Assembly (NCBI RefSeq): GCF_900106665.1
Contig: NZ_FNNA01000002.1
Span: forward strand, 806,001-870,000
Direction: 5' to 3'
DNA length: 64,000 nucleotides
Origin: Paracoccus sanguinis
GTDB lineage: Bacteria; Pseudomonadota; Alphaproteobacteria; Rhodobacterales; Rhodobacteraceae
Positions within the stretch are counted from its first letter, which is position 1. Each line of letters starts with the position of its first letter. Under the pieces are notes generated by a model. The model had not been told where the DNA came from. It saw only the letters and a list, made by a program, of their open reading frames with translations, and ran no database searches. Positions 45,643 to 48,753 of this stretch are shown one piece after another. Position numbers and translations under genes: made by a program.

Positions 45643-46371
45643 GTGACGATCCATCATGACTGGAATGCGACCGAAGCGGTCGGGATGCGTCCCGTCCGCC
45701 CCGGCGTGTGTCCGGATGACTGGGTCGCCGATCACCGCGCCGGCATGACCTGGTCGAAGCGGCTGTTCGACATCGTCTTCGCGCTGCTGCTGCTGATCCC
45801 GCTGTCGGTCGTGATGCTGGCCGTGGCCACGATCCTTGCGATCTACGAGGGGCGGCCGATCTTCTACGTGTCCGAGCGGATGCGCGCGCCGGGCGAGGCC
45901 TTCAACCTCATCAAGTTCCGCACCATGGCGCAGGTGGACGAGGACGCGGGGGCGACCGGCGCTCACAAGGCGTGGCGGATCACCCGGCTGGGCAAGTTCC
46001 TGCGGCGCACGCGGATCGACGAACTGCCGCAGCTCTTCAACATCCTGCGCGGCGACATGAGTTTCGTCGGGCCGCGCCCGCCGCTGCGCGAATATGTCGA
46101 GCGCTTCCCGCGCCGCTATTCCGAGGTGCTGCGGACGCGGCCGGGCGTCACCGGCCTCGCCACGCTGATCTATCACGCCCACGAGGACCGCATCCTCGCC
46201 AAGTGCCACACGGCCGAGGCGACCGAGGCCGCCTATTACCGCCGCTGCATCCCGACCAAGCTGCGGCTCGACCGCATCTACCAGCGGCGGCGGACGCTGG
46301 GGCTGGATCTCTGGATCATCGCCAACACGGTGATGACCGTCATCCGCCCGGGCTGGGTCCGGCGACGCTGA
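45643..46371 (+). CDS. Exopolysaccharide-type sugar transferase (polyprenyl-phosphate glycosyl-1-phosphate transferase)
   Basis: A 242-residue initiating transferase (WbaP/PglC-like catalytic domain) that loads a sugar phosphate on undecaprenyl phosphate to begin a polysaccharide. Visible features are the membrane-helix start [21 protein letters not shown] in two parts, [16 protein letters not shown], the catalytic [20 protein letters not shown] (two adjoining motifs), [12 protein letters not shown] and [19 protein letters not shown]. The GTG at 45643 follows CGGGAG; ATG codons at 45685 and 45745 are alternatives. Its 3' end overlaps convergent truA by 32 bases. No other polysaccharide gene is nearby. 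Confidence 0.87.
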
Positions 46372-47149
46372 TCCCGGCGAAGGGGTCGTCGGGGTAGTCC
46401 ACCCCGCTCAGATACAGTCCCGAGGGCGGGCAGACCGGCCCGCAGGCCGCCCGGTCACGCGCGGCGAGCGCCTCGGCCACGCGCGCGGGCGGCCACGCCC
46501 CCTGCCCCACCCGTTCGAGCGTGCCCACGATCGACCGCACCTGATTGTGCAGGAACGACCGCGCGGCGAGGTGGAAGCGGTATTCGGTCCCGCGCGGCAC
46601 GGGATGGGCGGTGATCTCGATCCGGTCGAGCGTCTTGATGGGGCTCGCCGCCTGACACATGGTCGAGCGGAAGGTGGTGAAATCGTGCCGCCCGAGCAGA
46701 TGCGCCGCGCCCGCCTGCATCGCCGCAAGGTCCAGCGGATGCGTCACCTGCCAGACCCGCCCGCGGTCATGGGTGGCCGGCGCGCGCCGCGACAGCAGGC
46801 GGAAGAGATAGCGCCGCCCGGTGGCGGAGAAGCGGGCGTGAAAGTCGTCCCCCACCCGCGCCGCCGCCAGCACCGCGACCGGGGCGGGCTTCAGATGCCA
46901 GTTCAGCGCCTCGGAAAGCCGGAACGGGTCCCAGTCACGCACCAGGTCCGCGTGGGCGACCTGCGCCGTGGCGTGGACGCCCGCATCGGTGCGCCCGGCC
47001 GCCGCCACCCGCGCCCCGGCCGCGAAGCCGGGGTCGAGCCTCGCCAGCGCCGCCTCGAGCGCGCCCTGCACCGAGGGCTGGTCGGCCTGCGCCTGCCAGC
47101 CTGCGAACGGCCCGCCGTCATATTCGATCCACAGCGCGAAACGGGGCAT
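46340..47149 (-). CDS. truA: tRNA pseudouridine(38-40) synthase TruA
   Basis: A 269-residue enzyme. The catalytic aspartate is Asp55 in [12 protein letters not shown], and [27 protein letters not shown] and [19 protein letters not shown] are typical. It modifies the anticodon arm of several tRNAs. ATG at 47149 follows the XpaC-like gene by two bases, so they are probably cotranscribed. The last 32 bases overlap the end of the convergent sugar transferase gene. Confidence 0.95.
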
Positions 47150-47151
47150 GG

Positions 47152-48129
47152 TCAGCGCGAGCGGTCGCGCAGGCTCTCGCGCAGCTTCTGGCCGAAGGTC
47201 TCGGCGGCCGTGGGCTCGGACCGCGCCTCAAGCGCGGGGCGGGCGGGAGCGTCGGGCGCGGGGCGGACGCCCTCGCGGGCCAGCCGGTCGCGCAGCACCT
47301 CGATCTCGATGTCCATGTCGGTGCGCCCGCCCTCGTGCAGCCGCTGGGCCAAGGCCGAGAAGCTTGCCTCGAGATCGGCCAGCAGCGCCTCGTAATCCGC
47401 AAGCGCCCGCGGGTCGCGGGTCTGGGCGTAGAGGTCGGCGAACTTGATCGTCGCGTCGCGCGCCCCCTCGAGGTAGACGCCGAGATAGCGCCGCGCCGGC
47501 GCGAGCCCGCCGGGGTTCTGCTCGACCTGCTCGAAAAGCTGCCGGGCGGTGGCCGCGAAGAGCCCCACCCGCGCCTCGAGCCGCCGGTCGCCGGTCCGCA
47601 GGATCGCCTGCGACATGGCGCGGAGGTTCGCCTCGGCCGCCTCGACCATGCGCGCGGCGCGGTCCTGCTGGAAGGCGTCCACCCCCTCCATCCCCTTGTC
47701 GGTCATCGGGTCCGGGCCGAAGGCGAGCCAGTGCAGCACCGCCCCCGTCACCCCCATCACCGCCGCCGGCGCGAAGCTGCCCGGCTCGGCGGTGCCTACG
47801 GCCAGCCCCAGCCCGGTCAGGATGCCGCCGAAGAGCTTGCGCGGGATCGCCGGGCGCCGCGCCACGCGGCGGGCGTCATAGGCGGCCTCGGCCTGCAGCC
47901 CCTCGCGCGTAAGCCACATCGCCCCCGCGGTGATCCCGAAGGCGGCGAGGTTCGCGGCCATGCCGACCGGGTCGTGGAACGGCGCGGCGAGCAGGAAGGG
48001 CGTGGCCATCGCCGTCACCCACGAGGTGCGCGACTCGTAGGGGTGGCGCAACCGCTCGGGCGGGCGAGGCAAAGCGCCGCCGGTCTGCCCCGGGACGGGC
48101 GAGTGCGGGCCGCCGAACCGACGCGCCAT
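47152..48129 (-). CDS. XpaC-like membrane protein (5-bromo-4-chloroindolyl phosphate hydrolysis family)
   Basis: A 325-residue protein with an N-terminal Pro/Arg-rich part, two or more hydrophobic segments between about 38 and 130 ([20 protein letters not shown], later [17 protein letters not shown]), and a long helical C-terminal domain from about 150 ([39 protein letters not shown]). This is the XpaC layout, often found with TelA tellurite/toxic-anion proteins; no telA is present here. The ATG at 48129 shares a base with the stop of a 26-residue upstream gene (TGATG). Function unproven. Confidence 0.75.
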
Positions 48130-48209
48130 CAGCCCAGCCCCAGCGAGGCGTAGAGCGTGACGCCCATCAGCAGGAAGAACGACAGGCGCTGCATGGCGCG
48201 ACGGGACAT
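48129..48209 (-). CDS. 26-residue membrane microprotein coupled to the XpaC-like gene
   Basis: The frame encodes a 26-residue protein with a basic N-terminus (MSRRAMQRLS) and a single hydrophobic helix (FFLLMGVTLYASLGLG). GGAAAGG lies eight bases before the ATG at 48209, and the stop overlaps the next ATG as TGATG, so it is either a genuine membrane microprotein or a coupling leader for the XpaC-like protein. Positive-inside charge and a helix just long enough to span the membrane favour a product. I know no named family. Confidence 0.6.
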   Translation of the reverse strand: MSRRAMQRLSFFLLMGVTLYASLGLG

Positions 48210-48387
48210 CGGCGGACCTTTCCTTGCGGCTCGGGCCGCCCGGCCGGGCAACCCTCCGGCCATCGGCCGGTGCGCTGCGAATATGGGGGATCGGCGGGGT
48301 GGGGAAAAGGGCACCGACCCCGCGGCAGGTCTGGATTGCGGTGCCGGCCCCGGTTGCCGCGCCGCGCCGGGCGGGCGATGATCGGGC

Positions 48388-48753
48388 ATGGCCGACCCGC
48401 ATCTGCGCCCCGAACTCTTCCTGCGCCTCTACCTTGCCCCCGACGCGATGCTGGGGCCGGGCAAGGCCGCGCTGCTGGCGGGGATCGACCGCACCGGCTC
48501 GATCTCGGCGGCCGGGCGCGCGATGGGGATGAGCTACAAGCGCGCCTGGTCGTTGGTCGAGACGATGAACGCGATGTTCGAGGCCCCGCTCGTGGACAGC
48601 GCCCGCGGCGGGCCGGGCGGCGGCGGGGCGACACTGACCGAAACCGGGCAGCGCGTCCTCGCCCTCTACCGCCGGATCGAGGCGGACGCGTCCGCCGCCG
48701 CCGCCCCCTCGGTCGCGGCGCTCAAGGCGCTGCTGCGAGGGCAGGAGGCGTAA
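48388..48753 (+). CDS. ModE-type winged-helix regulator without molybdate-binding domain
   Basis: A 121-residue protein matching the N-terminal DNA-binding domain of ModE: GKAALLAGIDRTGSISAAGR, AMGMSYKRAWSLVETMNAMF and LTETGQRVLALYRRIEAD. The C-terminal Mop domains that bind molybdate in E. coli ModE are absent, which is a common short form. It may still respond to molybdenum through a partner or act only as a DNA-binding protein. ATG at 48388; divergent from the microprotein/XpaC unit. No mod transporter genes are next to it. Confidence 0.8.
   Translation: MADPHLRPELFLRLYLAPDAMLGPGKAALLAGIDRTGSISAAGRAMGMSYKRAWSLVETMNAMFEAPLVDSARGGPGGGGATLTETGQRVLALYRRIEADASAAAAPSVAALKALLRGQEA

Follow-up and report, generated by a model that had tools for sequence, protein, structure and literature searches.

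The XpaC-TelA/YaaN module (PF10112 and PF05816) occurs in Firmicutes and in alphaproteobacteria. XpaC and TelA are widespread envelope-stress proteins, the mechanism of which is, to our knowledge, not settled. According to excerpts of the respective papers, xpaC-yaaN belongs to the sigma-W regulon of B. subtilis (PMC3498285), xpaC is upregulated in an E. faecium liaR mutant and tied to CesSR-mediated bacteriocin resistance in lactococci (PMC10269926), and in Listeria lmo1966-lmo1967 resemble XpaC/TelA (PMC12791056). Among known small proteins CydX comes closest in kind to the one reported here; the excerpted source describes it as a 37-aa subunit of cytochrome bd oxidase, the occurrence of which goes with one allele of the partner (PMC4325964).

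The window, that is the whole stretch of 64,000 nucleotides analysed from Paracoccus sanguinis (contig NZ_FNNA01000002.1, positions 806,001 to 870,000), contains a very small open reading frame next to a gene of the XpaC type (Table 1). Translation of 48209..48129 (minus strand), which reads ATG, 25 codons and TGA, gives MSRRAMQRLSFFLLMGVTLYASLGLG, a peptide of 26 aa with a basic N-terminus and a single hydrophobic stretch; R3, R4 and R8 precede the helix and no charged residue follows it. The preliminary description of this DNA had listed 26 codons with a basic start and one hydrophobic helix, a GGAAAGG in front of the ATG and a TGATG junction with the XpaC-like gene, and all of these are indeed present.

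Table 1. Position of the small gene, its signals and its neighbours in the window.
Feature	Coordinates	Strand	Remarks
Microprotein gene	48129..48209	minus	26 codons + TGA; predicted N-in/C-out single-span membrane protein
Shine-Dalgarno GGAAAGG	48217..48223	minus	7 nt between GGAAAGG and ATG
TGATG stop/start overlap with xpaC	48127..48131	minus	seen in sequence
XpaC-type gene (PF10112), 325 aa	47152..48129	minus	Pfam 69.9 bits, cut-off 29.8
truA, next gene 3' of xpaC	46340..47149	minus	Pfam PF01416
HTH_1 (LysR-type) DNA-binding gene, upstream	48388..48753	plus	

The frame stays open 5' of this ATG, forming an 86-aa ORF from 48389. Because in the alignment of the relatives the information content climbs at the Shine-Dalgarno sequence and ATG of the 26-codon version and drops past its stop, the 26-codon start appears to be the right one and the longer frame to be unused. 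A GAAAGGA-like block is kept before the ATG of the small ORF in the aligned Paracoccus loci. Further upstream, at 48280..48289 (minus strand), the window carries the sequence CCCCCATATT, which resembles a -10 region.

By script, Rhodobacteraceae loci were searched for a frame of 22 to 42 codons whose end meets the start of xpaC, and 108 out of 111 have this counterpart immediately 5' of xpaC; the set shares ancestry and includes duplicates (the window appears as L001 and L082, and several species in both searches). The set consists of 80 named loci from the XpaC search, 30 from a draw of the genus, in which xpaC is present in 100 of 101 genomes, and the window's own locus. Two of the three misses (L020, L098) are cut by contig ends and in the third (L062) a similar frame is present, in which no clear start is seen. 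Among the script calls, two of 42 codons start too early and those of 22-23 codons represent inner starts. In total the 108 loci encode 91 distinct peptides with a conserved hydrophobic pattern.

A profile built from 54 of these peptides (A1, threshold E <= 0.01) finds a match in 160 of the 195 genomes sampled from the order, and PF10112 matches 192 of the same genomes. In the 59 genomes compared in which both match, the small gene and xpaC are adjacent on one strand in 58, with the microprotein match 291-426 nt before the PF10112 domain; the sole exception (G233) is situated at a contig end. Of the 35 genomes missed by the profile 23 were inspected, and every one carries a divergent copy of the small frame: 22 have a small hydrophobic frame that runs up to the start of xpaC (in L151 taken from the displayed frames), and the copy of L153 was found separately. 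In several genera the sequence is clearly different, e.g. MSSSFLQGVSFFVLVLVIVGAIFGGYGAL. Three of the 35 (G110, G183, G203) have no xpaC match either. The microprotein is thus kept immediately 5' of xpaC almost throughout the Rhodobacteraceae.

The preliminary description had proposed to look in relatives for a conserved frame whose substitutions respect codons, and besides the conserved frame such substitutions are found. In 26 distinct 27-codon sequences from Paracoccus pN/pS is 0.33 in frame, as against 1.17 and 1.72 in the other two frames, and the differences are distributed as 1323/968/3075 over the three codon positions. The other three length groups show in-frame values of 0.38, 0.41 and 0.53 and values above 1 in both other frames. 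Both pN/pS and the codon-position bias point to purifying selection on the protein, and the 26-codon frame is, on this sequence evidence, a genuine gene whose amino-acid sequence is under purifying selection. Open frames abound in GC-rich DNA, and the Shine-Dalgarno sequence of xpaC could be part of the reason why the C-terminal glycine codons are near-invariant. That the ORF arose by chance and is conserved only through overlap with regulatory signals is nevertheless hardly conceivable, given the substitution pattern, the hydrophobic pattern kept across the distinct peptides and the lack of any such ORF at the xpaC genes of a second type (see below); we regard this reading as already refuted by the sequences.

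The selection on amino acids also speaks against a leader peptide, in which the act of translation and not the product would control xpaC expression via coupling or attenuation, as had been offered for this frame as an alternative to a functional protein. No excess of RNA structure over synonymous-codon shuffles was found in 107 loci (mean z 0.02), no Rfam match exceeds its gathering score, the peptides of the small ORFs have no PP motif, and the gap between the two frames is too short for an attenuator. The pattern expected of a leader or attenuator, conserved RNA structure or a stall motif combined with an otherwise free peptide, is therefore not what these loci show. The close succession of the frames would suit a leader, as would the finding, in an excerpt of the work on CutF, that a small first ORF in Rhodobacter is needed in cis for the output of cutO (PMC8456105). 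However, the stop/start overlap is not conserved, and a separate SD-like sequence precedes xpaC itself in 103 of 108 loci. The TGATG coupling suggested earlier holds for the window, but a +1 overlap is present in only 29 of the 108 loci; the others have 0 to 16 nt between the frames, except one with a 4-nt overlap. Some translational coupling is plausible and leaves the amino-acid conservation unexplained. That the small ORF acts as a leader setting xpaC translation is, in our opinion, quite improbable.

Upstream of the small ORF of non-Paracoccus loci (e.g. L026, L042, L054), at a distance of about 28-40 nt, a block TTCCCCCTAGC-N17-CCTARRTT can be found. Its full form occurs in 20 of 69 loci and a partial form in six more, the shuffle expectation being 0.05; the script returned 21 matches, of which L071 was not counted as it is without the TTCCCC block. 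When eight whole genomes were searched for the exact element it was found once in each of six, always at this operon, and the reversed pattern gave eight chance matches. A scan of the roseobacter loci for sigma-70-type promoters was negative (0/69). The conserved block has the look of a promoter or operator that is specific to this operon and unusual in sequence. It is not seen upstream of the small ORF in the window.

The gene 3' of the microprotein exceeds the gathering score of PF10112, which in Pfam carries the name 'Halogen_Hydrol'. Its protein, the nearest named relative of which is that of P. sphaerophysae (80%), has an N-terminal membrane domain with four hydrophobic segments and a cytoplasmic helical domain, as judged from the alignment and an AlphaFold2 model of the P. 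sphaerophysae chain. In the alignment the cytoplasmic loop of the four-helix membrane domain holds invariant residues. A homologue of xpaC is located on a 1.58-Mb extrachromosomal replicon in Pseudorhodobacter turbinis (NZ_CP039965.1, 934955..935824).

Besides XpaC other targets have to be considered. A genuine membrane microprotein could act on TelA, on an unrelated membrane complex or on itself as an oligomer, with the link to xpaC reflecting shared regulation only. In favour of TelA, telA follows xpaC in 67 of the 69 non-Paracoccus loci and belongs there to the same cluster. In Paracoccus, by contrast, truA is found 3' of xpaC in 39 of 39 loci and telA is not there; in the window genome telA is located about 200 kb from the microprotein gene (G000:C12:652994-653983), and the sequence just upstream of it contains no such small frame. 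Therefore the small gene stays with xpaC and not with telA, which argues against the TelA reading.

With respect to topology, the first 10 residues carry on average 1.30 K/R and 0.19 D/E, and 96% of 112 peptides are uncharged past residue 11. According to the positive-inside rule the basic flank of a membrane helix stays inside, and so an N-in/C-out orientation with almost nothing outside is predicted. In 110 aligned peptides the conserved residues A/S, L, L and V/A at i, i+4, i+7 and i+11 form one face of the helix (helical moment test, p = 0.003, or 0.01 with the angle left free, phylogeny being handled only by 80% identity weighting). One conserved helix face suggests packing against a protein, and it could equally serve self-association.

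In the AlphaFold2 model of the P. sphaerophysae read-through chain the small helix reaches a pLDDT of 94-95, the linker stays below 50 and XpaC is mostly above 90. As the core of the isolated peptide is predicted equally well (92-95), we rejected this confidence as evidence for docking, on which the model says nothing. The best Foldseek match of the read-through model has an E-value of 0.37 and the VIA-align rows list only generic helical bundles of the cytoplasmic part, so that no related fold can be named. No natural fusion of the microprotein with XpaC was noticed among the XpaC N-termini viewed.

Beyond the family, a draw of 289 genomes from the class yielded just 17 with PF10112. A fixed rule, demanding a frame of 15-48 aa with a hydrophobic window that ends 20-200 nt before the first XpaC helix, was applied to the XpaC loci of other alphaproteobacterial families. 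Such a frame is present at 25 of 27 loci of the 4-helix XpaC type, at none of the 13 loci of the 2-helix type and in 70 of 1500 random windows, the two types being assigned by eye from hydrophobicity plots and five loci being left out because of contig ends, other topology or truncation. The two 4-helix exceptions do have such a frame beyond these limits, that of L193 being 54 aa long and that of L132 lying about 330 nt upstream. In the sampled alphaproteobacteria a single-span small ORF hence precedes the 4-helix and not the 2-helix type of XpaC. Two genomes (G507, G403; loci L130, L132, L140, L141) harbour each one XpaC of either type, and there the small ORF is found beside the 4-helix copy only. 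Because the microprotein tracks the 4-helix type and stays with xpaC in Paracoccus, we consider a target other than XpaC rather unlikely.

In whole genomes (E <= 0.01) the small ORFs of the other alphaproteobacterial families all escape the Rhodobacteraceae profile, and its two matches outside the Rhodobacteraceae (G460, G469) are partial and near the threshold. The small ORFs of one family (f160) are the only group above shuffles, with 9.4 bits where one of 1000 shuffles reaches 8 bits or more. For the remaining families sequence homology is not supported; one control XpaC helix scores 4.0 bits, as high as their small ORFs. The link outside the family thus rests on position and architecture, and the small ORFs there are possibly non-homologous replacements. 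In two families (f131, f159; L173, L179, L186, L188, L192, L193) the small ORF looks like a tiny lipoprotein with a lipobox-like ...[VAIL]x[SG]CQ... and a short tail; the lipobox-like xSC/GC occurs there in some loci only. The window peptide contains no cysteine and therefore no lipobox.

The best reading, and a fairly probable one, seems to us that the microprotein is a small transmembrane subunit of the 4-helix XpaC. It accords with adjacency and co-distribution in the loci (108/111) and genomes (58/59) and with the contrast between the 4-helix and 2-helix types. The microprotein would be translated from the mRNA of XpaC, just ahead of it, and would insert N-in/C-out; its conserved face (A/S, L, L, V/A) would then pack on the XpaC membrane domain as an extra helix in trans, and the packed helix might stabilise or tune XpaC and hence the envelope-stress function of XpaC-TelA. 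As to the single-span partner suggested in the preliminary description, there is good support for a genuine protein linked to the XpaC-like gene, and its physical partnership is what we infer from the sequences. A wider idea is more tentative, and we would put its chances at somewhat less than even: each alphaproteobacterial 4-helix XpaC could be an obligate two-chain membrane protein that receives a fifth helix in trans from a microprotein encoded upstream. These microproteins would be divergent and perhaps unrelated, conserved in position more than in sequence, and XpaC-TelA would be a system of three components, the smallest of which has escaped notice.

None of the 54 members scanned matches a Pfam or NCBIfam family over the curated cut-off; the best Pfam match is COX14 (E 0.0074, in two of the 54) and no NCBIfam match lies below E 0.031. 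In the open-licence PMC literature nothing was found on a small ORF beside xpaC, in agreement with the earlier suggestion that the gene is possibly undescribed. It encodes a real and conserved membrane microprotein that has probably been overlooked and represents a new family of a known kind; genes of 26 codons tend to escape gene finders. A third component present in nearly all Rhodobacteraceae and unseen by the family libraries would provide a direct handle on XpaC-TelA. The association always with the 4-helix and never with the 2-helix type in this sample predicts which membrane domain the microprotein serves, and hundreds of natural variants offer a small-protein family for studying how a single helix assembles with a partner.

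In comparison with the XpaC-TelA/YaaN module, the downstream protein belongs to PF10112 and telA follows in most Rhodobacteraceae loci. The Rhodobacteraceae differ in that XpaC has a 4-helix membrane domain and lies apart from telA in Paracoccus. A small third component is not mentioned in the excerpts of the work cited on this module (PMC3498285, PMC10269926). CutF of Rhodobacter capsulatus is likewise a small first ORF of a Rhodobacteraceae operon, and the gene behind it depends on its presence in cis, but according to the excerpted source CutF has 118 aa, a signal peptide, a CXXXC motif and a link to copper (PMC8456105), none of which applies to the microprotein. With under about 50 aa and one transmembrane helix the microprotein has the size and topology of the CydX-like kind of small single-span accessory subunits. 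As far as the excerpt on CydX goes (PMC4325964), both are tiny single-span proteins, often unannotated, whose genes share an operon with that of a larger membrane protein; they have few conserved residues and a presence tied to one allele of the partner, which here is the 4-helix XpaC. They differ in gene order, as cydX follows cydAB and the small ORF precedes xpaC, and in that CydX has a complementation phenotype whereas the microprotein is known from its sequence alone; the likeness is one of kind, and no sequence relationship between the two is claimed.
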